Below, piece by piece: positions 28,402 through 58,282 of a stretch of 64,000 nucleotides of DNA. Below the pieces are notes generated by a model. That model had not been told where the DNA came from. It did not search any database and saw nothing but the letters and a program-made list of their open reading frames with translations. A program made the position numbers and the translations under genes. The DNA is from Anaerophaga thermohalophila str. Valhall (GTDB lineage: Bacteria > Bacteroidota > Bacteroidia > Bacteroidales > Marinilabiliaceae), in the NCBI RefSeq assembly GCF_000250735.1, contig NZ_AHZV01000350.1:1-64000 (forward strand), read 5' to 3'. Within the stretch, counting starts at the first letter, position 1, and every line of letters begins with the position of its first letter.

Positions 28402-28411
28402 AAAGCAAAAA

Positions 28412-35583: not shown

Positions 35584-35601
35584 AACTTAACAGGATTTAT
35601 T

Positions 35602-35955: not shown

Positions 35956-38900
35956 AAAAATTGACAGTGCAGAAATAAACCATCTGTGGGTGAGAATATT
36001 TCCTGACGATTGCTCCATCGATACTTTTGAAGAATTTCTTTCGGACGCAGAGATTGCAAATGCCCGTGATTTTTGGACAGACTGGGCCGTTGCCGCTGGA
36101 AATGAAACAAAAAAAAGAGGGGCCTGGCGAACATTGGTCGACAGTCATGGCGCCGGGCGGGCACAATATATTTATGATCATTACCAGCCCTTGAATAAGA
36201 ACGAATTTTTTGATGTCGAAGAGCATGACGGGAATTATGTGAAACTGGTCATTCCGGTGGTTCAGGGTGACCTTGAGGAGGAGGATAATGAAGAGAATGC
36301 ACTCTTGCTGTACTGGGAAGAGGTTTGGCGGGCCAACGGGAATGTGGAACGACTTGCAAGTGCCTTTAATACCTTTTCGGAAGGAAGGGATGCAGAACGG
36401 GTAAACTATTTGCTTTCGCATTTTGTGCCCAGGAATATTGGAGATGATTTTTCTTTCATTGCAGACAGAGATGGTGCGGAAGTTACCGTGATGTGTGTGG
36501 TTTTTTCTCCCGATAGTGATGTTGATTCTCAGCGGGATACCTGGACGCAGGTACCAAAGGTTCGTATCATGCCCGAGCGGTTTTATCTCATTGGTTACCG
36601 CGACAATGTTGAAAAGTTGAAAGTAATGGGCAATAAGGTGCCGCTGGTGTTGGAGTGTGGGCCCGATCCGTCAGCGGAGGAAGGGGATAAGATCGACTAT
36701 CTTGACGGCGAACTGGAAATAACACAGGGAATGAAATGGATGGTCGATTTTAATGAAGCTCAGAATGCAGGAATGGCTTTTGATATTTCCGACGATGACG
36801 ATTATGATCATGATGTAAAAAAAGGTTACGACCGGCTTATTGTTGTTGGCATCAGGTTAACTGCAGATAAAACAACCGGGAAAGAACTTGCTGAGAATCT
36901 TTTTCGCAATCATTATTTCGGTAATTCGGGCTTTAGCTTACTGCCAGTGGGTACTGCAACCAATAATATACAGGATAAAGAATCGGGATATACGGAGAGT
37001 GAAGATTCAAACGATTCTTTTGATTTGATGTTTCAGTCTGATGATGCTGCAAACGATGAGTCTTTTGAGGAGTCGGACAGAAAAGTATTCAATAAGCTGA
37101 TTGGATTTTCTGAAAATTTTCTGAAACATTCGAAATCAAAGGTCACTACCGATCAGCAGGAAGCAAAGGCCATGAATACGGCTCTTTGGCCGGCCACACT
37201 CGGTTATATGCTGGATACAATGTTAAGGCCGGTACTTAATGATGATCAGATTGAGAACGTTCGATGGTTTTTTACTCAATATGTGTCAGGACGAGGCCCG
37301 ATTTCTTCTATTCGTATAGATGATCAGCCTTATGGGATACTGCCGGTAACCGTTTTTTCGCGTATTTCCTGGTTTTATGAAATATTCGACGGGCAACTGA
37401 CCCACATGAAAAAAAATCTAAACTCATTTCACAATTTTCTGAATCAGTTATATGCCGTATTATTGAAAATTCAGGATGACTGGAAAGGGATGTCTTTATC
37501 GGTTCCCCACGTTGAACCAGGTGAGAATCCCCACCAGAAAATGATGGATATATTGGGACATCATGGCGGGTCTGTGGAATTTCACACACGGATGGCTCAA
37601 AGTCTCAATCATCTGTACAATGTGTTCAAATTATTGTACGAGGAATATGCTACGGCAACGACCGATATGGATATGACAAGACTTTATGAGGCCAGTAAAA
37701 ACTATCTGGATGCCTGGGCACAAAGCCATTCCGGTTGGGATTTGCTGGGTAAGCTGGGGTACGATCAACGTGAGATTCCTGAAATCTATGATAAATTTTT
37801 TACAGGTGAAGCGCTTCCGGTTGATTGTCTGATTGACGACCAACCCCTGTCGGAAGAAAAGAAGCTCAGAAACTATGCAACCATTACTATTCCCGGCAAT
37901 GAGCCTTCCGAAAAACAGGTCAATTATATTGAATGGTTGATGGATGCGGGTAAATCGCTGAGTAAGCTCCGGGCCAGAGAGGGATTCTCGGACAATAAGG
38001 AACCTCAGGCCTTATTATACAAAATGCTCCATCATGCAATGGAACTGGGATATTTTTCTACAGCTTTGCAACTCTATCAATCGCATGAATTGTTGACCAC
38101 TGAAGAAATGCTTCGATGTGCCCGGCGGGAGCCCGATTTTATTCACATAAGTGGACTGAAGAACAAAGACAACTCACAACCGGAAAGAAAACCGGCTCAC
38201 TCTGTTTTTCCCAGTGAAAGCAGATATTACTTTTTGGAACAGAAAGTAGAGGCCATCACCGGAAATCGTGAGCAGACCGTTTCCGAGTTCATTTCTGAAA
38301 GTCTTCACGGACAAGCCATTCCGGGAAGTTATCTGAATGATCAACTGGATGCTTTGACATATTTGAAAGATTTGCCAACTGCCCGGCTCGAAAGATTACT
38401 TTCCGAGCATATCGATTGCGTTTCATATCGTTTAGATGCCTGGAAAGAAGGACTGATTCATTATCACCTCAACCGGCTACGAGATCAGCAGCAGGAGCAT
38501 GAAGGTGATGATTATTCCGGGCAGGGTGGATTGTATCTTGGTGCTTATGGCTGGCTCGAAAAGGTGCGTCCTGAAAATAGAACCCTTACAGCCATTACCG
38601 ACTTTGACGATGATGACCTTCAGGATGCCTTTCATCCGGACGGAAATAAACCGATTTATAAAGACAATACCAATCAGGGATACATTCAGGCTCCGTCATT
38701 AAACCATGCCGTTACTGCAGCTGTGTTGCGTAATGCCTACCTGTCGCATGCTTCTGAAGAAAATGCTGAAATATATGGCATTAACCTGTCTTCAGAAAGA
38801 GTCCGGAATGCATTAGGTATTTTGGAGGGCATTCGCCAGGGGCAGGATATCTCTGCATTATTGGGATACCGGTTTGAAAGACATCTGCGGGATCAGGCAT

Positions 38901-41404: not shown

Positions 41405-43263
41405 GTAACGGAAAACATTTTCAGGTTTTACCCGATTTTCAGGTTGGCATAAATCCCACCATTACTATGTGGAACCGCGTGGAAGGCCGTCCGAGAAGAG
41501 AAGACTTTTCCAGAGCTTTACGTGCGGAAATTCGCGATCCGTTATGGATGTTGACCCGGCAATGGCAGATGGGAGAATTTTTGGGCGATGATGCCGGGTC
41601 TCCGATACTGGCAAAAATTTATTGCAACAAAAAAAGACTGCGAAAATTTCAACCGGCCGGCAATGCTTCGCAAATGTACAGGAACAATATTCCGTTGGAA
41701 GGACTGGTTGAGCAGATGCCCGTTCCCTTTGTGATGAACGAGAAAGTGTTTTCACTGGATATAAGGATTATGATGGGCAGATACTGGCTTAAACTTATCG
41801 GAGCCAATAGGGAACTGGCGGGATTGTATGCCGGGAAATATCCTGTAAGAGTTCCTGAATCGCCTGTGGATGAACAGCATGCTGATATTCTTGCACATCC
41901 CGAAAGTTGGCAGAAATTTGCTGCAGCCGCATCGCGAAAAATGGACGGATATGAATTTTATCTGTATTTGACCACAGGTAAGCCGGGCGTTGATGAGGTT
42001 GAAATAGATGACGAAACAATCATCGAAGAATATCGCGAAGCGTTTATCCAATGGGTGAATAATTTCTTTCTTCAGCCAATGAATGAAGGACAAAATGCAT
42101 ATCTTCCTTCCAGGTTGGAATATCAATTCAGGTGTTCAGTACCATTTGAGGCAAGAGAGAAAGTCTACAAAGCAGATGGCTATCATTCGGGACACCTTGA
42201 CTGGTTTAACCTGACCCTGGATGATTCTGTTTCTGAGTTACATGTTGAAGGGGATACTTCTCCAAACGCAGAGGATGAAAAAGCTGAGAAAACAATTCCT
42301 GTTGGAGAATCCAAATTTACTTTTATCCCTGTAAATATCGATTATGAAGGAATGCCGGATACGCGTTGGTGGAAATTTGAGGACCGTAAAACTTTCCTGG
42401 GTGATATCAAACCGGATACAACCGATATCTCAAAACTCTTTCTGGAATTCACTCTTTTTTATGCCAACGACTGGTTTATGATTCCACAACCATTGCCTGC
42501 AGCATCTATTTCCGAAATAAAAGGATTAGTGGTGACCAACTGTTTCGGTGAGAGAACATTGATCGAACCTGCCGGAAGAGGGGCCGATAACGACTGGCAA
42601 CGGTGGACGATGTTCGCAGTGAACCGTGAAGGAACCGAGGCCGTCGCACAAGCGGATCATTCATTGTTGATGTTACCTACTGTTCTCAAAATTCAGGAGG
42701 GCCCTCCGATAGAAAGCGTTGTCTTTGTTCGGGATGAGATAGCAAATATGGTGTGGGCTATAGAAACGGATATTACTTTGCCCTCTGGCGATACCAAAAA
42801 AGGGATAGAAGCAGCCCGTGAGTTGTCATCTTTCTATGACCGTCTGTTTCAAGGAAATAACGGCGGTGATGACCAGGAGTCAATGGCCGATATTCGTTAC
42901 CAGTTAATGAATACTGTACCCGAAAACTGGATCCCTTTCATCCCTGTTCATGTTGATCATTCCCAACGTGAAATACAACTTCAGCGCGCTTCTATGCCGC
43001 GCATGAATGCCGATAATACATTCAATTCCGTAAAGCCGCGAACTACTATTTTGCGTATTGGTCTCGATGAAAATGAAAGAGTCCCCTATTTCGTCTTCGA
43101 AGAGGAGGTTCCTCGTGCAGGTATTCAGGTAAAAAAATCTTTCCAGCGAACCAGGTGGCATGGAGGAAAAGTATTTAACTGGATCGGCATCCATAAAGAA
43201 ACAGGTCGCGGAGAGGGTTTGAGCGGATTGAGATTTGATCAGATTATTGGAGAAAAACGCTAA
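41401..43263 (+). CDS. Conserved protein of unknown function (620 residues)
   Basis: No named family recognised. The N-terminal block WNRVEGRPRREDFSRALRAE, followed by LWMLTRQWQMGEFLGDDAG (about residues 49-67), and the C-terminal GRGEGLSGLRFD look like strong signatures; I recall similar signatures in large uncharacterised proteins of other phyla but cannot check. Also present: WVNNFFLQP and NWIPFIPVHVDHSQREIQLQ. No signal peptide or membrane segment. The start overlaps the 1821-residue gene's stop (ATGA), so production is probably coupled and the two may form a complex. It ends the giant-gene operon, 37 bases before the PHP-type gene. Confidence 0.75.
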   Translation: MSNGKHFQVLPDFQVGINPTITMWNRVEGRPRREDFSRALRAEIRDPLWMLTRQWQMGEFLGDDAGSPILAKIYCNKKRLRKFQPAGNASQMYRNNIPLEGLVEQMPVPFVMNEKVFSLDIRIMMGRYWLKLIGANRELAGLYAGKYPVRVPESPVDEQHADILAHPESWQKFAAAASRKMDGYEFYLYLTTGKPGVDEVEIDDETIIEEYREAFIQWVNNFFLQPMNEGQNAYLPSRLEYQFRCSVPFEAREKVYKADGYHSGHLDWFNLTLDDSVSELHVEGDTSPNAEDEKAEKTIPVGESKFTFIPVNIDYEGMPDTRWWKFEDRKTFLGDIKPDTTDISKLFLEFTLFYANDWFMIPQPLPAASISEIKGLVVTNCFGERTLIEPAGRGADNDWQRWTMFAVNREGTEAVAQADHSLLMLPTVLKIQEGPPIESVVFVRDEIANMVWAIETDITLPSGDTKKGIEAARELSSFYDRLFQGNNGGDDQESMADIRYQLMNTVPENWIPFIPVHVDHSQREIQLQRASMPRMNADNTFNSVKPRTTILRIGLDENERVPYFVFEEEVPRAGIQVKKSFQRTRWHGGKVFNWIGIHKETGRGEGLSGLRFDQIIGEKR

Positions 43264-43300
43264 CTTTATCTGTCTCAAACTTTATCATTTACTCTATACT

Positions 43301-44113
43301 ATGAATCGACGAACATTTTTAAAGAATGCCGGCATTGCCGGTGGCCTGATGGCTATGCCCTCCCTCTGGAGTTGCAATGCTTCCGGAGAAAAGTTTGATT
43401 TCCCTCTTACAGACTTGCACGTTCATCTTACCAGGGATTTTACCATCGACCATCTGATGGAACTTTCTGAAAAAAGAGGTGTTAGGTTTGGAGTCGTAGA
43501 ACATCCGGCTGATTGGGCAATCAAAGATGATGCCGATCTGAAAGCCTATATCAATAAGCTTCGGCAATATCCCGTTTATGTCGGACTTCAACCAATGACT
43601 CCCAACTGGACAAAAAGATTTTCTCCCGATTTATTAAAAAGCCTGGATTATATTTTAATGGATCCCCAAACCATTCCACTTGGACGAGGCAGATTTCAGC
43701 GCATTTACGAATTGTCATGCTATGTGGAGGATACCGATGAATTTATGCGTCGCTATATGGATTATACCATCTCTGTTTTAGAGAATGAACCACTGAATAT
43801 TTTTGGGTGGCCTCTTTTTCTGCCGGTTTGTATTGCACGCGATTATTACAAACTCTGGACACAGGAACGAATGCAAAAGATTATATCGGCAGCCAAAGCC
43901 AGTAATATTGCTATAGAGATCAACGATATGTCGCATACGCCACACAAAGAATTCATTCTGATGTGTAAAGAGCAGGGTCTGAAATTTACCTTTGGTTCCG
44001 ATTCACGAAATATGAATGCGGGACGGCTGGCTTATTGTAAAAGGGTTGCAAATGAATGCGGGTTAGCAAAAGAAGACTTTTATGTACCAGGAAAGGGAGA
44101 TGTTGTGGTTTGA
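43301..44113 (+). CDS. Tat-exported PHP-type metal-dependent hydrolase
   Basis: Start chosen at the ATG of NRRTFLKNAGIAGG, a twin-arginine signal, 22 codons after the longest possible start. SLWSCN at about residue 26 may be a lipobox, giving a Tat-exported lipoprotein. The mature part carries the PHP/amidohydrolase entry TDLHVHLTRDFTIDHLMEL (HxH metal ligands), GVVEHPADW, and a late GSDSRNMNAG block with further possible ligands. 270 residues is right for a small PHP phosphoesterase or metal-dependent amidohydrolase; substrate unknown. It follows the giant-gene operon by 37 bases and precedes the glycan locus. Confidence 0.75.
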   Translation: MNRRTFLKNAGIAGGLMAMPSLWSCNASGEKFDFPLTDLHVHLTRDFTIDHLMELSEKRGVRFGVVEHPADWAIKDDADLKAYINKLRQYPVYVGLQPMTPNWTKRFSPDLLKSLDYILMDPQTIPLGRGRFQRIYELSCYVEDTDEFMRRYMDYTISVLENEPLNIFGWPLFLPVCIARDYYKLWTQERMQKIISAAKASNIAIEINDMSHTPHKEFILMCKEQGLKFTFGSDSRNMNAGRLAYCKRVANECGLAKEDFYVPGKGDVVV

Positions 44114-44307: not shown

Positions 44308-47300
44308 ATGAATCGATTGATTTGGTTGTTGTTTTTCTGCTTTTTGGCAACACTGGTTAAGTCTGAAATTAATTCTCCAGAATTTGTTCATTATACAAAT
44401 GAAGATGGTTTACCATCATCGTATGTAAAAAGCATCATTCAGGATGCCGACGGTTTCATTTGGTTTGCAACCAGGGCTGCAGTAACCCGGTTTGATGGGC
44501 AGGCGTTTAAGGAATTCCCTGCTTATGATAATGCTGATGAAAAAGTCCGGATTTTCGGTGATAGACTTTTTCTGGCCTTTGATTCTCTTCTGATTACCCG
44601 TACCATAAAAGAAAAATATTATTTCTTCGATGAGTATCAGGAGTGTTTTCGTCCTTATTCTCTTTTAAATCAATTGGGATCTGTCCTTGCTATTGTTCCT
44701 TCCAGAGGTGGTTTTTGGATTTGCCGGCCTGACAGAATAACTTTTCTGAATGCATCCACAGGAAATGAGCAACCTATTGAATCCGTTTTTGCATCAGTTT
44801 CTTTTCCGGAAAGGATGGGGTTTAATAATCTAATTGAATCCGGTAGAAGGATTGTTATTCTGACGGATAATGGGAAAATTGTTGTCATTGACAAGGAAAG
44901 GGATGCTGTTAAGAGCTATGATGTTCCTGAAGAATTAGGTGACCAGCAATCCACATTGTTTTTTATCGATTCAGCAGAAAATGCCTGGCTGGGAATGTTT
45001 GAGTACGGTCTGGTACGCTTTCATCTACCCACAGGGACGTATCGGGTGTATTCGCAAAAACTGGAGAAGCCTTATCATTTACCCCATAATCTGGTGCACT
45101 GCCTTACCGAGGACCATCAGGGGCGTGTTTGGATCGGCAGTGAAGACGGATTGGTCATTCACGACCCGGTTACAGGACATCTGTCGTTGCATAGTTTTGA
45201 TTTGCATGATCCAACCGGATTGAATAGTAATCCGATATATGACGTTTTTTGCGATACAGAGGGAAATATGTGGTTGGGAACTTATTTTGGAGGCATTAAC
45301 TTCTGGAGCAATAAAGAGAGCTTTTTCAGGACATGGAATCCCGGCTTGGGCGATGGAGAGTTGCGAGGTAATGTTGTTAGTTGTCTGACGGAAGATTCGG
45401 AAGGCAATCTTTGGATCGGTCTTGAGGATAACGGACTTAACAAATATGATCGCGATTCCGGCGTCATTACTCACTATGCTGAAGATAAAGGCCCCGCTCA
45501 TTTATCTTACAACAATCTTCACGATCTCCTTTTTGTTTCCGAACATGAACTATGGATGGCAACATACACAGGAGGGATTAACGTTTTAAATACCAAAACC
45601 AACGATATCAGGTTTCTTACCCCGGAAAACACAGAAGGTCTTACATCGAATGCCATATACTCTTTTTTGGCGGTCGGAGATTCTGTTTACATATCCACCT
45701 CGCTCGGAATCGTTATTTACGATAGAACAACCGAAAAATTTACACCCTTAAAGTCCGATGCTTTGGGCCTTTTCCAGTTCGAGAGCATGGCAAGGTCGTC
45801 CGGCAAACTGTGGTTTACCTCTGCTGCCGGCGTTTATGGTTATATTCCGCATAGCGACTCACTATTTACCTTCGATAAAGTTCCCGGGATGAATAACATC
45901 AACTTTGTGAAAACCGATTCGGAAGGAAATATTTGGTTTGGCGACTGTTATAAAGGACTTTGCAGGTACAATGAAGAAACCGGGAGAACAAAGTTTTTCA
46001 ACGAAGAGACCGGTTTTCCGGTTTCCTGGATTTTTAGTCTGGAAGAAGGTGAAGATGGATGGTTTTGGGCAAGCAGTGATAAAGGTCTTGTGAGATTTTC
46101 GCCTGAAGAGGAAATATATATATTATATGACAGTAACTCCGGAATACCTTTTAATCAGTTTAACTACAGGGCATCATTCATCGACAGCAAAGGGAATATA
46201 TATTTTGGCGGCAATAACGGGATGGTTTCTTTCAACGAGGATCGTCCCAGGCAGGAACGCAAAGATCTGCAGGTTATGTTTACCGGGATGAAGCTTTTTA
46301 ATGAATATGTTTTACCGGCAGAGGATCGCAGGCTGAAACAATCATTAAACAAATCGGAGAAAATTGTACTGGACTACGATCAAAATGTTCTGACTCTTGA
46401 ATATGCAGCTCTTGCTTATTCGGCTATTGGTCGTTGTCAGTATGCCTATTATCTGGAAGGATTTGAGGATGAGTGGAATTATGTTGGCACCCGAAACTTT
46501 GCTACTTATACAAACCTGAGTCCGGGAACTTATTATTTTCATGTCAAAGCCTCATCGGGCGATATTAGAAGTGCTTCAGGTGGACGGGTATTGCAGATTA
46601 TTGTCCGTCCTCCGTGGTGGCTCTCCAGAGGCGCTTTTGTCAGCTATTTTTTAGTGGCCATTTTGTTCTCAATATTGGTCTTAAGAGTGGGTAAGAATAT
46701 AGAGAAGTCGAAAGCCCAGTTAATGCTTGAACGAAGGGAACGGGAACATGCTGATGAAATCCACCAGGTGAAACTGGACTTTTTTACAAATATTTCGCAT
46801 GAGCTGAAAACTCCTTTAACATTGATTATCGGCCCCCTTAACCGGTTGATGAATGAAGAAAAGATGAGTCCTGCACTTCGAAAATGTCTCACCGGGATAG
46901 AGCGTAATGCGCAGCGGCTTTTTCATCTGATCAATCAGTTGTTGGAGTTCAGGAAGATTGAAACCGGAAAGGATAAACTCAGAGTTTCGTGTCACGATAT
47001 TTCCATTTTAACAAAGGATATAGCAGATTCTTTCATGGAGATGGCAGATGCACGTGATATTGAATTCTCCGTTTTTGTTCCCGACAATCCGCCAGAAGTA
47101 TGGTTCGATAGCGGGAAGATTGATAAAATTGTCATTAATCTGCTTTCCAATGCATTTAAGTTTACGAGCGAAGGAGGAAAAGTCGAGCTCTCTGTTGATG
47201 TTAAGCCAAGAGGTGGAAAATTCGCAAAAGAAAAACAGGATTTGAGCATTTGTGTGTCCGATACAGGTAAAGGTATTGAGCCTGAAATGATCGACAAGGT

Positions 47301-48345
47301 TTTCGACCGTTTTTTTCAGGTGGATGATGGTGATGGTCAATCATTCAACTCAGGAATTGGTCTGGCTTATGTGAAGAGTCTTGTTATGTTCCACCGGGGT
47401 ACTGTTAATGTTGAGAGCAAGCCTGGTGAAGGATCTGCTTTTACTGTTTCCATCCCGGCGTCACTGTCCGATTTTTCTGAAGATGAAATTGTAAACAAGA
47501 AGGAACAATATACTGATATTAGGCACGAGCCGGAGATGATTGTCCAAAGTCCATCACCTATTAATGGTTTCGATCCGTTAATTTCTGGTACCGGGAAGCC
47601 TTCGGTTTTATTGGTGGAGGATAATGTTGAACTGGTTAAGTTTCTGAACGAAATCCTGGAAGATAATTATCTTGTTGAATCGGTTTTTAACGGACAGGAA
47701 GCACTGGATAAGCTTGAGGAATTTAATCCGGACCTGATTATTAGCGATATTATGATGCCGGTTATGGACGGAATAACCTTTACCAAACAGATCAAAACCA
47801 GTCTTAACACTTCTCACATCCCGGTAATTTTACTTACTTCCAAATCGGGCGTTAAGAATGAACTGGAAGGTCTGATGACAGGGGCCGATTACTACATTGG
47901 AAAACCCTTCTATCCGGATATTCTTGTACAGGTTATCGAGAATATATTAAATACCCGTCAGCGTGTTATTGACCGTTTTCGTGATGATACGGCCTTTTCA
48001 ACAGGTGAGTTACAGTGCTCCGAGTCGGACAAAATTTTTCTTGAGAAACTGACAAACCTGGTTAAAGATAATCTTAGCTGCAAAGTACTCGATGTAACAT
48101 TTTTAATCAATGAGACTGGTGTAAGCAGGTCATTGCTCCACAAAAAACTTAAAGGAATTGTCGGCTGCTCAGCAACTGAATTTATCCGGATTATACGCCT
48201 GAAAGAAGCCGCAAAACTTATTGGTTCCGGTAAATGTAATATTACTGAAGCTGCCTATGAGACAGGATTCTCCAGTCCTGCATATTTTACACGTTGCTTC
48301 AGAGAGTTTTACGGTCAATCACCAAGAGAATATTATGGAGGGTAG
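44308..48345 (+). CDS. Hybrid two-component system regulator (HTCS) of the glycan locus
   Basis: One-protein signal system typical of Bacteroidota polysaccharide loci. Signal peptide, then about 14 beta-propeller (Reg_prop) blades (about residues 25-660; blades such as DADGFIWFATRAAVTRFDG, DSEGNLWIGLEDNGLNKYD), a Y_Y_Y domain (about 690-760, YAYYLEGFEDEWNYVG), a membrane helix (about 777-796), HisKA with His831 (FFTNISHELKTPLTLIIGPL), HATPase_c (NLLSNAFKFTSEGGKV, DTGKGIEPEMIDKVFDRFFQ), a receiver with Asp1147 (DLIISDIMMPVMDG) and a C-terminal AraC-type DNA-binding domain (EAAYETGFSSPAYFTRCFRE). AGGAG lies near the start. It likely binds the twin palindromes upstream of susC and activates the locus on sensing an oligosaccharide. 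Confidence 0.95.
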   Translation: MNRLIWLLFFCFLATLVKSEINSPEFVHYTNEDGLPSSYVKSIIQDADGFIWFATRAAVTRFDGQAFKEFPAYDNADEKVRIFGDRLFLAFDSLLITRTIKEKYYFFDEYQECFRPYSLLNQLGSVLAIVPSRGGFWICRPDRITFLNASTGNEQPIESVFASVSFPERMGFNNLIESGRRIVILTDNGKIVVIDKERDAVKSYDVPEELGDQQSTLFFIDSAENAWLGMFEYGLVRFHLPTGTYRVYSQKLEKPYHLPHNLVHCLTEDHQGRVWIGSEDGLVIHDPVTGHLSLHSFDLHDPTGLNSNPIYDVFCDTEGNMWLGTYFGGINFWSNKESFFRTWNPGLGDGELRGNVVSCLTEDSEGNLWIGLEDNGLNKYDRDSGVITHYAEDKGPAHLSYNNLHDLLFVSEHELWMATYTGGINVLNTKTNDIRFLTPENTEGLTSNAIYSFLAVGDSVYISTSLGIVIYDRTTEKFTPLKSDALGLFQFESMARSSGKLWFTSAAGVYGYIPHSDSLFTFDKVPGMNNINFVKTDSEGNIWFGDCYKGLCRYNEETGRTKFFNEETGFPVSWIFSLEEGEDGWFWASSDKGLVRFSPEEEIYILYDSNSGIPFNQFNYRASFIDSKGNIYFGGNNGMVSFNEDRPRQERKDLQVMFTGMKLFNEYVLPAEDRRLKQSLNKSEKIVLDYDQNVLTLEYAALAYSAIGRCQYAYYLEGFEDEWNYVGTRNFATYTNLSPGTYYFHVKASSGDIRSASGGRVLQIIVRPPWWLSRGAFVSYFLVAILFSILVLRVGKNIEKSKAQLMLERREREHADEIHQVKLDFFTNISHELKTPLTLIIGPLNRLMNEEKMSPALRKCLTGIERNAQRLFHLINQLLEFRKIETGKDKLRVSCHDISILTKDIADSFMEMADARDIEFSVFVPDNPPEVWFDSGKIDKIVINLLSNAFKFTSEGGKVELSVDVKPRGGKFAKEKQDLSICVSDTGKGIEPEMIDKVFDRFFQVDDGDGQSFNSGIGLAYVKSLVMFHRGTVNVESKPGEGSAFTVSIPASLSDFSEDEIVNKKEQYTDIRHEPEMIVQSPSPINGFDPLISGTGKPSVLLVEDNVELVKFLNEILEDNYLVESVFNGQEALDKLEEFNPDLIISDIMMPVMDGITFTKQIKTSLNTSHIPVILLTSKSGVKNELEGLMTGADYYIGKPFYPDILVQVIENILNTRQRVIDRFRDDTAFSTGELQCSESDKIFLEKLTNLVKDNLSCKVLDVTFLINETGVSRSLLHKKLKGIVGCSATEFIRIIRLKEAAKLIGSGKCNITEAAYETGFSSPAYFTRCFREFYGQSPREYYGG

Positions 48346-48746
48346 ATTTTCAAGACCATATAAAGCTCCTAAAATCTAATATCTTTTATCTGACTCAAGT
48401 TACAAAACACTCTATATCAATCATTTGTTTTGCGGAGTTGGATTTTTGTTTATCAGGCCAATTTTCGGTACTAACGGCAAAATTCTTATCTGCAAAACTT
48501 AACACTTCTGCCTTCTGCCTGGCAAACTTCTGCCTGTCGATTACTAACCTCTAACCATCTTCTGTCTAACCCTCTTTTTCCTCTTCCAAACTAATGTTAA
48601 AAAAATTCGCCATTAATACAACTTCCTGTTAGGAATAGAACAGCTTTTCTGGTTGTAAAAAGTAGAGATTACGGGCGGATATTTCTTGTCAGGCAAATGT
48701 TAAAATGAGTATCAAGTGACTCGTCTTTACAGCGCTTTTAAGGATT

Positions 48747-48781
48747 TTACACATTTGTGTAAGTTTTTTACACATGTGTTA
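48747..48781. promoter_or_regulatory. Twin palindromic operator candidate upstream of susC
   Basis: Two TTACACA-based palindromes: 48747-48762 (arms TTACACA and TGTGTAA, 2-base centre) and 48768-48781 (TTACACATGTGTTA). They repeat with a 21-base period, about two DNA turns, and lie 28 bases upstream of the -33 box of the susC promoter candidate, the place expected for activation by the adjacent HTCS. Confidence 0.65.
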
Positions 48782-48808
48782 TAGTTAACCTCTTCCAAAT
48801 AAAGAACC

Positions 48809-48839
48809 TTTGATTTACAAATTAAGTAAGGTCTATTTG
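48809..48839 (+). promoter_or_regulatory. Candidate susC promoter
   Basis: TTTG at 48809-48812, 19-base spacer, TCTATTTG at 48832-48839 (one mismatch to TAnnTTTG), 48 bases before the susC start. Confidence 0.5.
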
Positions 48840-48887
48840 TTGTTGACCCGGAAGTGTTTTGTAAATAAATAAAAATTTGAGTTGTCT

Positions 48888-51800
48888 ATGAAAAAGAAAT
48901 GTAATTGTATGAGACTTGAGTCTTATACGGTGATTCGAACCTTAATGATTGTGAAAATATCCGTGTTACTACTCGTGGCAGGATCAGTTCACATGTTTGC
49001 CGACAATCATCAGGATAAAGAATATCCGGATGATAGTGGAAAAAGAAATAATAGTGTTATTGAAACGCATTACTTATTTCAGCAGGATGAGAGAACCATT
49101 ACCGGAATTGTAACTGATGAAAATGGAGAGCCTATCCCTGGTGCAACTATTCAGGTAAAAGGTACCAGTAAGGGAACAATTACCGATATGGATGGTAATT
49201 ATTCAATTGAGGTTTCGCAGGAGGCTGAAGCCCTGGTTTTCTCTTTCGTTGGGATGAAAACCAGGGAGATTGTGATTGAGAATCAGACCCAATTGGATGT
49301 ATCCCTGGAACCTGAGGTGCACGGACTTGATGAAGTAGTGGTGATTGGATATGGAACCCAGCGAAAAGGAGATGTAACCAGTGCCGTTTCAAGTGTCAAA
49401 TCTGAAGATTTTATTCAGGGGAAAGTCTCAGATGCTGCGGAACTGGTAAAAGGGAAAATTGCCGGACTGACAATTTCAAAAGGAACAGGCGACCCAAACG
49501 CTGAGTCTACTATAAGGCTTCGTGGCGTTATATCGCTGGAAGGTAGTTCCACGCCATTGGTTTTAATAGACGGTGTTGAAGGAAGTCTTGGGACAGTTGC
49601 TCCCGAAAACATTGAATCAATTGATGTTCTGAAGGATGCATCAGCTGCTGCAATTTATGGTACGCGTGGTGCTAACGGGGTTATTCTCATAACCACTAAA
49701 TCGGGAAGACGTGAAACAAATACACGTGCTGGTTATTCAGGTTATATGTCGATGTCTGAGTTTGGCAAGACATTGGATTTCATGGGACCTGATGAAATAC
49801 GTCAGGGATTGACTGACTTTAAGGATAAGGGATATGATACAGATTGGCTGGATGCTGTTACGCGTAAAGCTTTTACTCATAATCATGACTTCTACATATC
49901 CGGAGGAAATGAGAAAACAACTTATTCAGCAAATATTAATTACAGGGATGAAGAAGGGGTTATTATAGATACCTATAATGAAGAGATGAGGTTGAATTTG
50001 GATATATCCCATTGGATGCTGAATGATATGTTAAAGGTGGACCTGAATATTGTAAAAGGACTTCATGAAAACAGTGCTACCAATGCCAGTAACAACGGAG
50101 CATCTAATATTTACAGGCAGGCCATTATCCGAAATCCGACAGAACCAATCTGGAATGAGGACGGAACCTACTACGAGGATTTCCAGGTCAATTATTATTA
50201 CAATCCTGTGGGAATGATAAAGGAAAGAAAAGGTACTTACGAGTCCGAGTGGACACGTATTACCGGGAATATTATTTTCGAGCCTGTCGAAGGGTGGGAA
50301 ACCAATTTGATGTTGGCTACCCGTAGATCAAATGCCCATGATAAAGGATATTATACATCAAAATATTACAGCCAGAAGATGGATAATCATACCGGTTATG
50401 CTTATCATTCACAATCAGACAGCAAAACGGATAATCTTGAGCTTACGTCAAAATATAACAAAAGAATTAATGATCATCGTTTGAATGCGCTTGTCGGCTA
50501 TAGTTATCAGTATAACCTGAATCAGGGATTCAACGCTAATAACTACGATTTTCAAACTGACTTTTTTAAGTATAATAATTTGTCTGTTGGTGCTGCTCTG
50601 AAAGAAGGTAAAGCAGGAATGGGTAGTTACAAAAATGATAACAAGCTGGTCGGATTCTTTGGAAGAATCAGTTACGGATATGCTGACAAATATAATGCAT
50701 TGATCAGTATCCGTCGTGAAGGCTCATCCAAATTCGGAGAAAATCATAAATGGGGTAATTTCCCATCTGCTTCACTGGGATGGACTATCAGTAACGAAGA
50801 CTTTATGAGCAGTTTAGAATGGTTGAATAATCTGAAGTTGCGTGCAGGCGTTGGTGTTACTGGTGTTATTCCCAATTCATCTTATTTGTCATTGACGCGA
50901 TATAATTTGGGTAGTTCTTACTATTACGAAGATGGTGAATGGATGCCCGGATTAGAAGTAGCTTCCAATCCGAACCCTGATTTAAAGTGGGAAAAATCTA
51001 CAGAGTATAATATTGGATTAGATTTTAGTTTGTTAGAGAATCGTTTGGGGGGGTCTATTGATGTATATAATAAAGAAACCTCCGACATGCTCTGGTGGTT
51101 TGATGTACCTACTCCTCCGAATTTGTATCCTCAAACGTTGGCAAACGTGGGAGAAATGAGAAACAGAGGTATTGAAGTTGCCATTAATGCCACACCTGTG
51201 AAAGCCGGGAATTTTGAATGGAATACTACTTTAACTGCTTCACATAATGCCAACAAGCTTTTGAGTTTATCCAATGATATGTATGAAACTGCCAATGAGC
51301 AGGATGAAGCCTGGTTAGGTGAACCCATTACCATCCCTACACAACGTCTGGAGGTAGGTGAAGAACTTGGTAATTTTTTCGGACTTAAATCTGTAGGTGT
51401 TTCCGAGAACGGGCTTTGGTTAATTGAAAACCCTCAAACCGGAGAAGCCGAAGAGTTTACTGACAATATGCTTAACAATGATGATTATCGTCAGTATCTT
51501 GGCAACGGAATGCCTGATGTGAATTTGGGATGGAGCAATTCATTCCGTTACGGAAATTTTGATTTAAGTTTTCAAATGATCAGCCAGTTAGGATTTAAAA
51601 TATTGAATGAGCCACGCGCTTTTTATGAAAACAATTCTATTGCCTATAATCGCTTGAGATCAGTAAAGAAGCCGCCTTATGGAGGCGAGTATACTTTGTC
51701 TTCTTCACAAAAACAAACCATCGTTAGTTATTACCTGGAAGATGGTGACTTTCTGAAACTTACCAATTTAACGATTGGATACACCATTCCTGTAGGCGAA

Positions 51801-51980
51801 AACAATTATATTAAGAAGATTCGTGCCTATGCTTCGGGTGATAATTTATTTTGTATCACCGGATATGATGGGCTGGATCCCGAACTTTCCAACAATAATG
51901 TACGTTCACTGGGAATCGATTGGAGAGATAAATACCCTGTAGTCCGTTCATTTACATTCGGGGTAAATGTCACATTTTAA
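48888..51980 (+). CDS. SusC/RagA-family TonB-linked outer-membrane transporter
   Basis: Outer-membrane importer of oligosaccharides, working with the SusD lipoprotein that follows. Signal segment (about residues 15-37), carboxypeptidase-D-like domain (about 65-140, ITGIVTDENGEPIPGATIQV), the TonB-box region LDEVVVIGYGTQRKGDVTSA, plug with VLKDASAAAIYGTRGANGVI, and a barrel of about 760 residues ending FTFGVNVTF. Length of about 1030 residues is typical. A TTG start two codons earlier is possible, but the ATG before KKKCN is preferred. The susD start lies 19 bases after its stop. Its expression is probably driven by the HTCS through the twin palindrome. Confidence 0.95.
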   Translation: MKKKCNCMRLESYTVIRTLMIVKISVLLLVAGSVHMFADNHQDKEYPDDSGKRNNSVIETHYLFQQDERTITGIVTDENGEPIPGATIQVKGTSKGTITDMDGNYSIEVSQEAEALVFSFVGMKTREIVIENQTQLDVSLEPEVHGLDEVVVIGYGTQRKGDVTSAVSSVKSEDFIQGKVSDAAELVKGKIAGLTISKGTGDPNAESTIRLRGVISLEGSSTPLVLIDGVEGSLGTVAPENIESIDVLKDASAAAIYGTRGANGVILITTKSGRRETNTRAGYSGYMSMSEFGKTLDFMGPDEIRQGLTDFKDKGYDTDWLDAVTRKAFTHNHDFYISGGNEKTTYSANINYRDEEGVIIDTYNEEMRLNLDISHWMLNDMLKVDLNIVKGLHENSATNASNNGASNIYRQAIIRNPTEPIWNEDGTYYEDFQVNYYYNPVGMIKERKGTYESEWTRITGNIIFEPVEGWETNLMLATRRSNAHDKGYYTSKYYSQKMDNHTGYAYHSQSDSKTDNLELTSKYNKRINDHRLNALVGYSYQYNLNQGFNANNYDFQTDFFKYNNLSVGAALKEGKAGMGSYKNDNKLVGFFGRISYGYADKYNALISIRREGSSKFGENHKWGNFPSASLGWTISNEDFMSSLEWLNNLKLRAGVGVTGVIPNSSYLSLTRYNLGSSYYYEDGEWMPGLEVASNPNPDLKWEKSTEYNIGLDFSLLENRLGGSIDVYNKETSDMLWWFDVPTPPNLYPQTLANVGEMRNRGIEVAINATPVKAGNFEWNTTLTASHNANKLLSLSNDMYETANEQDEAWLGEPITIPTQRLEVGEELGNFFGLKSVGVSENGLWLIENPQTGEAEEFTDNMLNNDDYRQYLGNGMPDVNLGWSNSFRYGNFDLSFQMISQLGFKILNEPRAFYENNSIAYNRLRSVKKPPYGGEYTLSSSQKQTIVSYYLEDGDFLKLTNLTIGYTIPVGENNYIKKIRAYASGDNLFCITGYDGLDPELSNNNVRSLGIDWRDKYPVVRSFTFGVNVTF

Positions 51981-51999
51981 AATCTTAAATTTTGTATCT

Positions 52000-53673
52000 A
52001 TGAAAGTGAATAAATATATATCCATCGTGGTGGCAGTAGTAAGCGTATTTGTGCTTTCCTTCAGTAGTTGTACTGATTTGGATGAAACCATTTATGATAC
52101 CATCGCTGCAGAAAAGTATGAGTTTTCAGAAAAGGATGCAGCCAGTATGTTTGCCCCTGTCTACAGTAATTTACGTAACCTTTATTGGGGATGGAACGGC
52201 TATTGCGATATTCAGGCTGAATCATCCGATCTTTGGTGTACCCCTTATCGTATAGGTATTGGCTGGGGTGATCTTTATGTATCCATGCATAAACATGAAT
52301 TCCATTCTCAGATTGGACATTACTGGACGGAATGGAATTATGGTTATGCAGGCATAAATGCCTGTAATAAACTTCTGGCCGTTAAGTCTGTGCAGGATTC
52401 AGAAGCTGCAGTTGCTCAGTTGAGAGGTTACCGTGCTTTATACTATTACATCTTGTTTGATTTGTTCCGGAATATTCCGCTGGATACTACCTATAATCAT
52501 CCGGAAGGATGGTTGCCTGATCAGGCAGAGCCGCAGGAAACCTGGGATTTTATTATTAGTGAATTAAAAGATATCAAAGGTAAAGTAGGTGAAGATAACG
52601 GTATGGGGCAAATTAACGATTATACCGTTAATATGATTCTGGCTAAAATGTATTTGAATCATAATGCATGGTTCAACGATCATTCGGATAACTCATACTA
52701 TGGTAAAGCCATTGACGAGATCAATGAAATAATAAGTAGTGGAAAGTACTCATTGGCACCCAGTTATTCCGATAACTTTAAGGAAGATATATCGGGATCA
52801 CCTGAAATTATCTTTGGCATTCCTTTCGAAGAGAAATATGCTTCTGGCAATTATTACGCCAACAAATGGATACATACTGCCGGAAGAGCTGTCTGGGGAT
52901 TTAATGGCTGGGCAACCGGTGGAAGTGCTGCTTTACCGCAATTCCTTGATACTTATGATGAAGATGACAGTCGCTTTAATGATTGCTGGACTGTTGGGCA
53001 ACAATACGATCAGAATGGAAATCCAATAATGGTTGACGGAGAACCATTAATTTATACAAAAGAACTTCACAGTATTGATAATCCTGGTTGCTATCCTTTC
53101 GAAGGAGCACGTTTAACAAAGTACGAGATTCTTCCAGGCGATTTTGGTACCAGTTATGATGATGTTCCTTTTTTCCGTTTAGCTGATGCTTATATGATAA
53201 AGGCTGAGTGTTTGTTAAGATTGGGCGGCTATAAAGGGGAATCAGAACAAGATGCAGCTGCTCTTGTAACACAGGTGCGTCAACGAGCCTTTAAAGACAA
53301 TCCGTCCAAAGCAGTACGTACTGTCGAAGAACTTAAGGGCGGAAGCGTTTATGATTACGGCTACCGTGAAAACCAGGGAAAAATGGGAGAAGAAGATGTT
53401 TGGATTACAACCAATGAAGGTGGAGAAGACATCGAATTAGGGGGTTTGTTAGATGATCTTGCATGGGAATTTGTTGCCGAACACCATCGCCGTCAGGATT
53501 TGGTGCGATTTAGAATAGAAGGTACAAATCAGAATGTATATAATGGAAAATCATGGTTTTGTAAAGAAGCTAAAGGTGATCCTTCAGACAATCATGCTGA
53601 TATCTTCCCCATACCCAAAGAATTTATGGACGGAAACCCGAATCTTATTCAAAATCCTGGTTACGGAAATTAA
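52000..53673 (+). CDS. SusD/RagB-family glycan-binding lipoprotein
   Basis: Surface lipoprotein that caps the SusC channel and binds glycan. Start chosen at the ATG before KVNKYIS; an ATG 33 bases earlier lies inside the end of susC and would spoil the signal peptide. Lipobox FSSC near residue 22. SusD-type TPR helices: QLRGYRALYYYILFDLFRNI, NMILAKMYLNHNAWF; C-terminal RagB block FRLADAYMIKAECLLRLGG and a closing stretch FPIPKEFMDGNPNLIQNPGY. 557 residues. A copy of the dispersed repeat directly follows and may separate it from the next gene. Confidence 0.95.
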   Translation: MKVNKYISIVVAVVSVFVLSFSSCTDLDETIYDTIAAEKYEFSEKDAASMFAPVYSNLRNLYWGWNGYCDIQAESSDLWCTPYRIGIGWGDLYVSMHKHEFHSQIGHYWTEWNYGYAGINACNKLLAVKSVQDSEAAVAQLRGYRALYYYILFDLFRNIPLDTTYNHPEGWLPDQAEPQETWDFIISELKDIKGKVGEDNGMGQINDYTVNMILAKMYLNHNAWFNDHSDNSYYGKAIDEINEIISSGKYSLAPSYSDNFKEDISGSPEIIFGIPFEEKYASGNYYANKWIHTAGRAVWGFNGWATGGSAALPQFLDTYDEDDSRFNDCWTVGQQYDQNGNPIMVDGEPLIYTKELHSIDNPGCYPFEGARLTKYEILPGDFGTSYDDVPFFRLADAYMIKAECLLRLGGYKGESEQDAAALVTQVRQRAFKDNPSKAVRTVEELKGGSVYDYGYRENQGKMGEEDVWITTNEGGEDIELGGLLDDLAWEFVAEHHRRQDLVRFRIEGTNQNVYNGKSWFCKEAKGDPSDNHADIFPIPKEFMDGNPNLIQNPGYGN

Positions 53674-53881: not shown

Positions 53882-54880
53882 ATGAAAAGTAAATTATTAT
53901 ATATACTAATGAGTTGCCTGGTCTTCTCCTTTTACTCCTGCGAGGATAGTATTGAGGATGCAACAAGTAAGCATGTGTATGGAGAAGATGAGAATCCATA
54001 CCTCAAAACGGGCGTAGGAGCTACTATTACCAATGATATGGAATTTGAAGTTGGGCGTTATGAGGCACAAACTGTAAATCTGGAAGAATATACAGACCTG
54101 TTCCAGGAACAAATGAATATGACCGTTGATGAAGTTATTAACGGACTGAGTGACGGGAGCGTAGTATTCTATAACATCAACGTTACCCGTGGGCATTGGG
54201 ATAAGACAGAGCCGACTAAAGGCTCCACCGGATGGTACTATAATTCTGCCGGTGGTTTATCGGCCGATAGTGAAGATTATGTTGCGAGTCTTGATATTGA
54301 CAAGGATGCAAAGCAGTTGATTGTCGATGTGGCTGATGAAGCCGAAGCGGGTCATTCTTTTTCATTCAATGTTGGTTTTGCTTTGAATGGACCTGACTAT
54401 GACGACTATGTGCGCTTTACTTTTAATGTTGCCACTATTGATCCGTCACTGATTCTTGCAAATCTTAGTATTCCTGAAGGAGACTATGCGGCAGCAGGAA
54501 TTAATCTTTACGATTATGCCGATGTGATACAATATAATTTGGGATTAACTGTAGATGAATTCCTTGCCAATCTCGATAGTAACGAAGGTGGTACTATTCG
54601 TTTGTATGTAATAGACAACGAAACCGGAGAATGGGATACTTCAAGTGATTATACGGCTAATCCCCCCGGCTATTGGATGAATGCTGATGGCGAGGTTTGT
54701 TCCTGGGGGGATGATGGTTTTACTTTATACGCTGAGGTCAATGTCGGTGACGGTGTTTTAAATATCGGCAGAGCACCTGCATTATCAGCTGGTGAAACCT
54801 ACAAAATCAGATTGGGATTCAGAGATACAACTGATGAGATGAAGTTTATTCGTTTCATTATTACTGCCACATTGGAGTAA
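53882..54880 (+). CDS. DUF4859-repeat lipoprotein
   Basis: Lipoprotein (lipobox FYSC near residue 20) with two tandem copies of a beta-sandwich-like unit of about 140 residues that I recognise as DUF4859: first copy about residues 50-190 (VNLEEYTDLFQEQMNMTVDE, GWYYNSAGGLSADSEDY), second about 200-332 (INLYDYADVIQYNLGLTVDE, GYWMNADGEVCSWGDDGF, SAGETYKIRLGF). Likely a surface glycan-binding protein of the SusE/F position type, judging by its place after SusD; binding is inference. The next gene carries a third copy of the same unit. A long hairpin follows the stop. Confidence 0.82.
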   Translation: MKSKLLYILMSCLVFSFYSCEDSIEDATSKHVYGEDENPYLKTGVGATITNDMEFEVGRYEAQTVNLEEYTDLFQEQMNMTVDEVINGLSDGSVVFYNINVTRGHWDKTEPTKGSTGWYYNSAGGLSADSEDYVASLDIDKDAKQLIVDVADEAEAGHSFSFNVGFALNGPDYDDYVRFTFNVATIDPSLILANLSIPEGDYAAAGINLYDYADVIQYNLGLTVDEFLANLDSNEGGTIRLYVIDNETGEWDTSSDYTANPPGYWMNADGEVCSWGDDGFTLYAEVNVGDGVLNIGRAPALSAGETYKIRLGFRDTTDEMKFIRFIITATLE

Positions 54881-55054: not shown

Positions 55055-56932
55055 ATGAAAAAAATAAACTTTCATCATCCGATATTATATCTTTCAATTT
55101 TTGTTTTTCTGATGTTTTCTTTTGTTACTACTATCGGCTGTAGTGATGATAAACAGGAACTGGTTAATAAAGAAGAGGAAGAAATTATCGATGAAACCGA
55201 CACAAAAGATATTTACATCCCTCAGGAATTTAGTGACATAGATTTCAACGACGAAAACAGTACGTGGTGTTATCAACGGAGCCGGGAGTCGGAAAACTTT
55301 ATTGTGTTCTGGGGAAAAGGATATGGCGACAAAGATCCGGGCTCATCTGAAGTGCCGGAAACTTACCGTGTAGATATTGATGATTTGTTGGAAAAGGCTG
55401 AAGAATTTTATGATCTGAATGTCAATGAACTAAAATTCGCTGAAGTAGGAGTAGGAAAATCCAACCTTGATGAGTACAAAATGATGATATTCCTTTTCTG
55501 CCAGGAGGAATGGAATGCAACAGGGGCCGGATATGATGACGTTATCGGTGCTTTATGGTTAAGTCCGAATACCTGTCAGCCTGTAGGTTCGACAATAGCT
55601 CACGAAATCGGGCATAGTTTCCAGTATCAGGTGAATTGTGATCTGGGCGGAACTGCCGGATATCGCTACGGTTTTGGCGGAAACGATGGCAATGCTTTTT
55701 GGGAACAATGTGCTCAATGGCAGGCCTATCAAAGTTATCCTGAAGAAGTCTTTAATTCAAATCATTTTTCGGTTTATTGCGACAATTATCATCGCCATTT
55801 GTGTCATGAAGATTATCGATATGCCAGTTATTTTATTCATTATTACTGGGCTGAAAAGCATGGTATCGATATCATTGGAAAGCTTTGGAGAAAAGCTGAA
55901 AAACCTGAAGATCCTCTTCAGACCTACATGAAAATAACCGATATTTCCGTTTCGCAACTTAATGACGAAATTTATGAGGCCGCAACGAAATCGGTAACGT
56001 GGGATTTTGATGCCCTTCGGGAAATGGGAGAGGATTATATCGGAAAACAAACATTTAAGTATAATGAATTGGATGATGGGAGTTATCAGGTAGCTTATGA
56101 CCGCTGTCCCGGAACCACTGGCTATAATGTGATTCCTTTAAATGTGCCTGAAGCCGGGAGTGTTGTTTCCACTGAATTTACAGGTCAGGTAAATGAATCC
56201 GGTTTCAATCAGGTTGATACCCCCGACAGAGCTGGATGGCGTTACGGATATGTGGCTTTGCTGGCTGACGGAACACGGATTTATGGAGAAATGAATAGCG
56301 GTACAGAAAATATCGTTGATTTTACAGTTCCTGAAAATTGCAGCAAACTATGGTTTGTAGTAACCGGTGCTCCGAATACCTATTCCCCCCATGCCTGGGA
56401 TGATGATAATTCCAATGATGACCAGTGGCCATATAAAGTGAAATTTTCAAATACGGATATTTACGGGAATATTGCATTTGATGGTTCTGAAACACCAAAA
56501 GATATTCAGTTAACTTATGATATCAGCTTCCCTTTTAATTCATCTGAGTACACCGGAACTTCTGTTACCATCGAAGGCAGTGATCTGACCGATCTGGCAA
56601 AAGCTTTTGTCCTTCAGCCCGGAGATATTTCGGGTCAACTGGGCCAGGATGTCTCTTTTTATGCGGTTGAACCCGATGGCACTCTGAATGCCAATACCAC
56701 TGCAAATGGCTACGGACATTGGTTCAATGCCAATGGTAGTGTTTGTGAATGGGGCGCTGAAGCCAGATTGTTTTCTGAGTTTGATGAATCCAATTTCAGT
56801 TTTTCAATAGGGCAATATCCCGATCAGTGTTCTGTGGGTGATGAGTATACAATCCGACAGGCCCTGGTATATGAGTATGAAACGAATAAATCGGTTCAGG
56901 CTACTTTTGTTTTTAATGTCACAATAGAGTGA
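55055..56932 (+). CDS. Zincin-like DUF6055 lipoprotein with C-terminal DUF4859
   Basis: Lipoprotein (lipobox TIGC near residue 29) with an acidic spacer and a metallopeptidase-like domain: HEIGHSFQYQ gives His183, Glu184 and His187, with a possible third ligand Glu217 in FWEQCAQWQAYQ. This is the pattern of DUF6055 proteins, often found in polysaccharide loci. A second beta domain (about 335-480) and a DUF4859 unit (about 485-625, GHWFNANGSVCEWGAEARL) follow. It could cut protein parts of a glycoprotein or proteoglycan substrate, or be a binding protein with a relict site. No direct proof of peptidase action. Confidence 0.8.
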   Translation: MKKINFHHPILYLSIFVFLMFSFVTTIGCSDDKQELVNKEEEEIIDETDTKDIYIPQEFSDIDFNDENSTWCYQRSRESENFIVFWGKGYGDKDPGSSEVPETYRVDIDDLLEKAEEFYDLNVNELKFAEVGVGKSNLDEYKMMIFLFCQEEWNATGAGYDDVIGALWLSPNTCQPVGSTIAHEIGHSFQYQVNCDLGGTAGYRYGFGGNDGNAFWEQCAQWQAYQSYPEEVFNSNHFSVYCDNYHRHLCHEDYRYASYFIHYYWAEKHGIDIIGKLWRKAEKPEDPLQTYMKITDISVSQLNDEIYEAATKSVTWDFDALREMGEDYIGKQTFKYNELDDGSYQVAYDRCPGTTGYNVIPLNVPEAGSVVSTEFTGQVNESGFNQVDTPDRAGWRYGYVALLADGTRIYGEMNSGTENIVDFTVPENCSKLWFVVTGAPNTYSPHAWDDDNSNDDQWPYKVKFSNTDIYGNIAFDGSETPKDIQLTYDISFPFNSSEYTGTSVTIEGSDLTDLAKAFVLQPGDISGQLGQDVSFYAVEPDGTLNANTTANGYGHWFNANGSVCEWGAEARLFSEFDESNFSFSIGQYPDQCSVGDEYTIRQALVYEYETNKSVQATFVFNVTIE

Positions 56933-56998: not shown

Positions 56999-58282
56999 AT
57001 GATTAATTGGAAGAAGCTGCTTGCGTCATTGATTTTGATATCAGGGTGTATTTTTATGAACGCTCAGGATATGACTTTTGATTCACCTGATGCAGGAAAT
57101 CCCATTTTGCCAGGATATTTTGCTGATCCAACCATCAAAAAATTTGGTGATACTTATTACCTGTATGCTACAACTGATGGAATAAAATTGGCTTCGGGAG
57201 AACCACAGGTGTGGATCAGTAAGGATTTTGTAAACTGGTTCAATTATGAGATGGATATGGATGTTCCCGAAGGACTTACAAATGTTTGGGCACCCGATGT
57301 TCAGAAGGGCGACGATGGTCGGTTTTATTATTACATGGGAAATTGTCAGTTCGGTTGCAATATTTACGGATACGTGTCTGATTCGCCAATGGGCCCCTGG
57401 AAGCCTGTGAATGCAGGAAAACCCGTTATTGAAGTCGGTACCGGCCTAAAAGAGCTGCCGGCTCTTGATGCTCAGTTTTTGAAAGACGATGACGGTTCGG
57501 TTTATAGTTATTTTGGTACATGGTGTCATCTATTCGATGGAATGGGATGGGCGGAGATCGACCCGGATGATATGACAACCATTCTCAGAAGCGGGGGGAT
57601 ACCTATGAAACAAGTTCCGAATGCCTTCGAAGCAGCCTATCCGCTAAAAAGAAACGATAAATATATCCTGATGTATTCTTCAGGTGATTGTCGCCTCAGT
57701 TCGTATGCTGTTCATTATTCTGTAAGTAAAAATCCGAATGGGCCGTATCGTTATGGCGACAATTCGCCGTTGTTAAAATCTTCTGAAGATGGAACGGTTG
57801 ATAGTCCGGGGCATCATTCTGTGTTGAAAGAAAACGACAATTACTATATTGTCTATCATCGGCATGACAATCCTCACAGTACCGGCGGTATGTTCCGTCA
57901 GGTGTGTGCCGACCGGATGTTTTTTCAAAACGATAGTACCATAAATAAAATTAATCCTACACATAAAGGTGTTGGATATTTGGGTGACAATCAGATTCCT
58001 TCTGAAAACCTGGCCAGTAGTTCTTCTATTTCTGCATCGTCTTTTTACCATTTAGTGTCGGAGGCCACTCGCTTTTCCAATGGGAAAATAGATCACAAAT
58101 ATCGTCCTGGTTATGCCGTCGACAATAATAACGGTACATTGTGGAAAGCTGCTTCGGCCAGTTTACCCCAGTCATTGGTGATTGATCTGGGACAAATAAG
58201 AAATATTAAGCGGATAATGACCCGTTTTGAATATCCGACTTTTTATATCAGTATAAAATTGAAATTTCTAAAAACAGTGTAA
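56999..58282 (+). pseudogene. GH43 glycoside hydrolase, N-terminal part (frameshifted)
   Basis: Secreted five-bladed-propeller enzyme of family GH43 (arabinofuranosidase, xylosidase or galactosidase types). Signal peptide to about residue 23 (FMNAQ). Catalytic residues: Asp43 (YFADPTIKKFGDTYY) as base, Asp157 (LDAQFLKDDDG) as pKa modulator and Glu211 (NAFEAAYP) as acid, all intact. From about residue 335 a coagulation-factor 5/8 type (CBM32-like) domain begins and is cut in the middle by a frameshift at the T run 58240-58244. Adding one T restores YQYKIEISKNSVTWSMFTD, a normal continuation of that domain. Confidence 0.85.

Follow-up and report, generated by a model that had tools for sequence, protein, structure and literature searches.

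Paired direct-repeat boxes before a susC-like gene as the predicted operator of the adjacent HTCS regulator

Two copies of the string TTACACA, one period of 21 bases apart, stand between the gene of an HTCS regulator and a susC-like gene, and the question is what reads them: the neighbouring HTCS, another regulator that recognises their palindromic form, or nothing at all. In the following, the window is the whole stretch of DNA analysed (64 kb). The features concerned are listed below.

44308..48345, plus strand: HTCS regulator of 1345 aa with Reg_prop repeats, Y_Y_Y, HisKA, HATPase_c, Response_reg and AraC-type HTH_18 domains
48747..48763, plus strand: predicted operator half-site 1, TTACACATTTGTGTAAG, upstream copy of the direct repeat
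48764..48767, plus strand: spacer TTTT between the 17-bp half-sites, four columns with only A or T in 13 of 13 aligned sites
48768..48784, plus strand: predicted operator half-site 2, TTACACATGTGTTATAG, downstream copy, period 21
48809..48839, plus strand: earlier promoter candidate TTTG-N19-TCTATTTG, weak, with a -7 part that is not conserved
48888..51980, plus strand: susC-like TonB-dependent transporter gene with its ATG at 48888, the predicted regulated gene
51967..53673, plus strand: susD-like gene, which as listed overlaps the end of susC and is presumably on the same transcript
53882..54880, plus strand: DUF4859 protein of the same polysaccharide locus (domain match)
55055..56932, plus strand: DUF6055 and DUF4859 protein with a HEIGH motif (domain and motif match)
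56999..58282, plus strand: GH43 glycoside hydrolase of the locus (domain match)

The motif TTACACA-N14-TTACACA occupies 48747-48774 and starts 141 bases before the susC ATG, just ahead of which an in-frame TTG is found at 48882. It forms the core of a 21-base direct repeat (48739-48759 and 48760-48780, 81% alike). Around a 2-base centre, the 7+7 arms of box 1 (TTACACATTTGTGTAA, 48747-48762) form a perfect palindrome. Box 2 (TTACACATGTGTTATA, 48768-48783) has 7-base arms that pair in six of seven positions at gap 0, and it contains a perfect 10-base palindromic core (ACACATGTGT, 48770-48779). Taken as 17-bp boxes, the two copies are identical at 13 of 17 positions with a period of 21. The preliminary description of this DNA had reported two TTACACA boxes at a 21-base period before susC, and they are present as described at 48747-48783. 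No Rfam match at gathering score was obtained for an RNA element in 48300-49000.

Several observations were made on the surrounding locus. Past the GH43 gene, the order continues with a laminin-G-like protein, DUF5695 pieces and an alpha-galactosidase-like gene. DUF5695 looks split into two ORFs in different frames (59196-61112 and 61228-61950, profile positions 2-582 and 649-854 of 857), which may point to a frameshift, to gene decay or to a fault in the assembly. On the other side, a block of about 18 kb (26449-44113), made up mostly of large genes (PLD-like, DUF6603 and unknown proteins of 1217, 1821, 620 and 292 aa), separates a gene with a weak TonB-plug match from the HTCS gene. The counterparts of those two genes adjoin in the related genome G053 (L140), and the block may be either an insertion in the window or a loss in G053. 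PADLOC returned weak DrmC matches alone for this block, for the PLD-like protein. Elsewhere, GAACATATTTTT occurs twice as a 20-base direct repeat (about 7578-7613), about 140 bases before a DUF2807 gene at 7719.

If the boxes serve the HTCS, they should be conserved with it. Among 71 family genomes, the HTCS protein found a match at E <= 1e-150 in 43, its own included. The closest orthologues outside the own genome are those of G039 (74% identity) and G053 (68%). Both genomes have the HTCS followed by susC, as in the window, with susC identities of 84% and 58%, respectively. An operator site precedes the orthologous susC once in G053 and twice in G039. The check proposed in the preliminary description, namely a search for the motif before homologous susC genes beside orthologous HTCS genes, was therefore passed in both of the genomes (2/2) that combine this order of genes with an HTCS at 68% identity or more, the closest comparisons covering three genomes. 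The doubled sites of G039 (L139:5225 and L139:5437, minus strand) both precede that one susC gene and are separated by 212 bases. The window also has pyrimidine-rich near-repeats, of the forms CTTCTGCCT and TCTAACC(A/C)TCTT, between the HTCS gene and the operator (48504-48576); none was seen by eye in the L139 (G039) or L140 (G053) sequences.

The pattern TTACACANTTGTGNAAGTNTTTTACACA, derived from the sites of the own genome, G039 and G053, was searched with up to 3 mismatches in the 71 family genomes. It occurred at four places, all in these three genomes, which are also the three with an HTCS of at least 68% identity; the reversed control gave 0. Recovery of the source sites is circular because the pattern was made from them, but its absence from the 68 other genomes is not. 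A matrix of the relatives' three sites, with the window site left out, gave the latter 41.9 bits against a background maximum of 16.1 over 2,293,448 positions. AT-matched simulations were added because the 80 background loci may be less AT-rich than the targets. None of 200 reached the score of the window site (largest 19.2 versus 41.1), the simulated stretches being 20 kb long and the window 64 kb. When the four upstream sequences are aligned, 49 columns are invariant; the 38-bp operator holds 23 of them, and the flanks drift.

The site was also followed in more distant orthologues. In G019, G006 and G008, which represent one genus and are not independent, the HTCS is 54% identical to that of the window. 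The window SusC has no match in their stretches (19.7-20 kb). In all three, a GH127 gene is nevertheless preceded by one site and a DUF6055 gene by another, the families having been run on the G019 copies (L141). The operator thus follows the HTCS, not susC, and DUF6055 proteins and GH127 enzymes become linked to the same regulator where the stretch examined has no susC match. With a four-site matrix, the best sites of L141 and L143 beat 100 of 100 simulations, and that of L142 beat 98. As only the top-scoring site of a locus entered the simulations, the second ones (before DUF6055) were judged by the background scan, in which 0, 1 and 1 of 2,293,448 positions score as high for G019, G006 and G008, respectively.

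At lower identity, the support becomes uneven. G050:C399 (HTCS 45%) has a site before a divergent GH127 gene with a score reached by 2 of 100 simulations, and G048 (41%) has one before GH97, reached by 18 of 100, or by 2 of 100 with a six-site matrix. Extending the protein search to 393 order genomes (E <= 1e-230) added a single HTCS, in G101 (40%); the search of 395 class genomes (E <= 1e-215) returned the own HTCS gene only. In G101, the stretch between the HTCS and a sulfatase gene contains a 21-bp repeat that matches at 13 of 16 positions and whose matrix score is not significant (reached by 80 of 100 simulations, and by 23 with the six-site matrix). For the second HTCS of G050 (C33, L146, 40%), no site above chance was found, the score being reached by 77 and 71 of 100 simulations. 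In all, the ten HTCS loci may be graded as six well supported (three of them from one genus), two supported, one suggestive and one negative.

The DUF6055 proteins of these polysaccharide loci, as well as the counterparts in L143 and L140, have an HE-x-x-H motif (HEIGH, HELGH or HEMGH). They are located as follows.

Window 55055-56932; L141:10352-11695; L143:8332-9678; L146:2774-6073; L140:1014-3065: HE-x-x-H proteins

The fusion partner of DUF6055 is GH97 in L146 and DUF4859 in the window. In the accessible part of PMC11241649, DUF6055 is mentioned together with peptidase family M106, and the DUF6055 protein of the HTCS-linked loci can be regarded as a putative metallopeptidase.

Taken together, it is highly likely that the two boxes serve as operator for the HTCS whose gene precedes them, a prediction made from sequence comparison. 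The regulator itself is complete. Every listed domain scores above its own Pfam cut-off, which gives the full single-chain HTCS set, and both the context of the phospho-acceptor His (FTNISHELKTPL) and that of the receiver Asp (DIMMP) are present. PDB sequence relatives of its DNA-binding domain include the HTCS protein 12aw, XylR (4fe4), MarA (1bl0) and AraC (2k9s). Binding and its dependence on phosphate are inferred, as are an activating instead of a repressing effect, the ligand and how far the operon reaches. The extracellular sensor part of the HTCS would bind a glycan fragment, and the kinase would phosphorylate the receiver within its own polypeptide, so that the AraC-type DNA-binding domain would be released. 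The presence of GH127 and GH43 hints, as no more than a guess, at plant glycans containing arabinose as the ligand. The two domains of an HTCS dimer would then each occupy a 17-bp half-site in head-to-tail orientation, and the distance of 21 bp (two turns) between half-sites would place both on one DNA face. Bound in this way, the HTCS would switch on susC-susD and probably later genes too.

An HTCS that binds here but mainly represses would leave the same boxes. Such a case is on record: in the accessible text of PMC11253607, the non-consensus HTCS BT2391 is cited as repressing, and no promoter conserved with the relatives was seen from which the position of an activator might be read. According to the same excerpts, HTCS fragments bind DNA in a phosphate-dependent manner, receiver-DBD fragments bound susCD promoters in EMSA, and a consensus S/CHIP-DK motif, which BT2391 lacks, is linked to phosphate-dependent binding. 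The window HTCS has SHIP at residue 1169, and so do 9 of 9 compared orthologues, a result that covers the S/CHIP part, the D and K partners having been inspected by eye only. The window HTCS therefore carries the S/CHIP consensus of the phosphate-gated HTCSs described there, and mainly repressive action is considered unlikely.

As for the promoter, the preliminary description had proposed TTTG (48809-48812), N19 and TCTATTTG (48832-48839) for susC. Bacteroides-type promoters follow the consensus TTTG / TAnnTTTG, with -33 and -7 elements. In the alignment, the window TTTG is common to one relative, G039 (L139), and the -7 element to none; the proposal could not be upheld. Downstream of the proximal G039 site and of the G053 site, the best promoter pairs have 2 mismatches and lie at other positions, and one 1-mismatch pair in G039, with a spacing of 22, overlaps the proximal operator itself. 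Before the orthologous susC genes of G039 and G053, the search gave no promoter that is conserved. A sigma-70 scan gave 1 site versus 1.5 in shuffles, with a model that does not cover Bacteroidota promoters.

The form in which the boxes would be read was addressed with a table of 13 sites: one from the own genome, two from G039, one from G053, two each from G019, G006 and G008, and those of G050:C399 (G050a), G048 and G101. L146 was dropped, its candidates not being above chance. The agreement of G050a, G048 and G101 is partly circular because their sites were chosen by matrix score. Over the 13 sites, the 17-bp boxes share a mean of 10.5 of 17 positions at lag 21, whereas the other lags from 15 to 27 do not exceed 6.5, and lag 21 is the best direct register in every one. 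Columns 5, 7, 17, 18, 26, 27 and 33 are invariant. T2, A5, C6 and T12 repeat 21 bases on as T23, A26, C27 and T33; A7 (13/13) recurs as A28 (9/13), and G17 (13/13) as G38 (9/13). From the columns that recur at +21, the half-site T-n-[C/A]-ACA-N4-T-N4-G is obtained. Such a 21-bp head-to-tail repeat fits two AraC-type domains bound head to tail.

The symmetry is far less persistent. Full 7+7 symmetry of box 1 is seen in 2 of 13 sites (own and G039 distal), and box 2 pairs in more than four of seven arm positions at gap 0 in 3 of 13 (own, G050a and G048). In the three closest other sites, it pairs in 2-4 of 7. Dyad symmetry of both boxes, by which a symmetric-dimer operator would be recognised, is thus not kept across the orthologous sites. 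The palindromes were rejected as the operative feature, since the symmetry of box 2 is mostly lost elsewhere and the direct repeat is the best register throughout. The preliminary description had read the twin palindromes as the operator of an HTCS, placed before susC and made of copies spaced by two turns; that arrangement is supported, and the operative role of the palindromes is not.

The same data bear on the idea that the palindromes serve an unrelated regulator which binds as a symmetric dimer (Crp-like, LacI, TetR, etc.) and also controls susC. The perfect arms of box 1, here and in the distal G039 site, and the perfect 10-base core of box 2 in the window would suit it. However, neither the loss of box 2 symmetry in the other close sites nor the consistent lag of 21 would be expected, and the site accompanies HTCS orthologues even with GH127 or DUF6055 downstream instead of susC. 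Such a regulator is very unlikely.

By itself, the string TTACACA-N14-TTACACA, considered without its conservation, is mildly to moderately improbable and only moderately surprising. The own genome (4.54 Mb) has one exact match, where a hand estimate from base composition gives about 0.1 chance matches per genome, and five one-mismatch matches. The totals up to 3 mismatches (237+227) are below those of the reversed-pattern control (271+291). In the whole window, the motif is the sole match within 2 mismatches, and shuffled windows hold a mean of 0.44, with at least one in 36 of 100. The motif is considered more than chance because it is conserved in orthologous loci, not because the string is rare. 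A matrix scan of the window gave 52.1 for the operator; the next best scores (11.5 and 10.9) overlap it, and the following one is 6.4, in agreement with the earlier claim that the boxes are absent before other window genes. A 28-base operator pattern, allowed up to 3 mismatches, found only the window site in the own genome. The possibility, raised in the preliminary description, that the motif is equally common genome-wide is thereby set aside, with one exact match and one with the longer pattern. A chance AT-rich repeat without function, conserved through short divergence, is hardly credible and already largely refuted: matches like those in the shuffled windows do arise, but invariant columns concentrate in the operator between drifting flanks, the 54% orthologues have the site in front of other genes, and no simulation reached its score.

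The sites differ in one half-site position that may be connected with the regulator. Base 4 is C in 8 of 8 half-sites where the first recognition helix is LLHKKL (own, G039 and G053) and A in 12 of 12 where it is LLHLKL (G019, G006 and G008). With the other three helices, which have T, I or M at that place, base 4 is T/A, A/C and A/A in boxes 1/2. By AraC-family alignment, we take the variable residue to match the base-contacting Arg46 of MarA. This HTCS group may keep one grammar (T-n-[C/A]-ACA-N4-T-N4-G, +21) while its targets change by genome, from susC to a GH127 arabinofuranosidase, a putative DUF6055 metallopeptidase and perhaps GH97 and a sulfatase. Base 4 would then track one helix residue, and its role as a specificity switch is a tentative suggestion. 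The link is confounded by descent because, although the pattern LLHKKLK has 12 matches in the 71 genomes, only those of the own genome, G039 and G053 are inside an HTCS; no independent case was found among the 71. The literature search, as far as the retrieved excerpts go, gave no recognised treatment of HTCS recognition-helix specificity.

The generality of the spacing was assessed in 299 upstream regions of 80 loci fetched for encoding an HTCS relative, using 16-bp windows, at least 13 matches and lags of 14-35. Repeats were found in 14 of 299 regions at lag 21 and in 13 of 299 at lag 22, against 0-5 at other lags and 0.25-0.9 in shuffles (block shuffles of single bases). These counts include duplicates from both genes of divergent pairs (L053 and L090 at 21; L048 and L082 at 22) and simple repeats (L036, L049 and L063 at 21). 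After cleaning by hand, lag 21 retains 9 regions and lag 22 retains 11, the other lags being left as counted. The repeat sequences vary from locus to locus, as is expected of many different HTCSs. A direct-repeat rule of 21-22 bp is therefore visible in loci picked solely for encoding an HTCS relative, and it makes it possible to predict from sequence what unstudied glycan sensors control.

Compared with known systems, the window HTCS shares the kind of DNA-binding domain (HTH_18) of the AraC/XylS family, and AraC binds head-to-tail half-sites about two turns apart. In contrast to that family, the window domain is fused to a kinase and a receiver and would be gated by phosphate instead of a ligand pocket. 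Two further sources were of little help in the parts available, PMC12125979 concerning a Vibrio XylR-like regulator and PMC4942465 giving no HTCS site. A putative Crp-like global palindrome of Bacteroides, wwwTATGTTnTAnAACATAwww, is given in the accessible part of PMC3878776 (Ravcheev et al. 2013). The window likewise has a palindrome before carbohydrate genes, but its sequence differs from this single 22-bp palindrome, and its conserved feature is the direct repeat. The closest likeness is with the HTCS operators in the same excerpts, where motifs were predicted for 16 of 36 HTCSs of Bacteroides thetaiotaomicron, all of them direct repeats, for HTCS genes co-located with susC/susD genes. Their repeat distance averages 21 bp, which was read as dimers on one DNA side two turns apart; the HTCS_Man example consists of two 16-bp sites with a 5-bp spacer. 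The window has the same elements: a direct repeat of 21 bp, a susC/susD pair beside the HTCS gene, and conservation before the orthologous targets (2/2). Box 1 differs from the B. thetaiotaomicron motifs in being palindromic, and the likeness is one of arrangement. The window operator is very probably a further case of the arrangement already described in gut Bacteroides.
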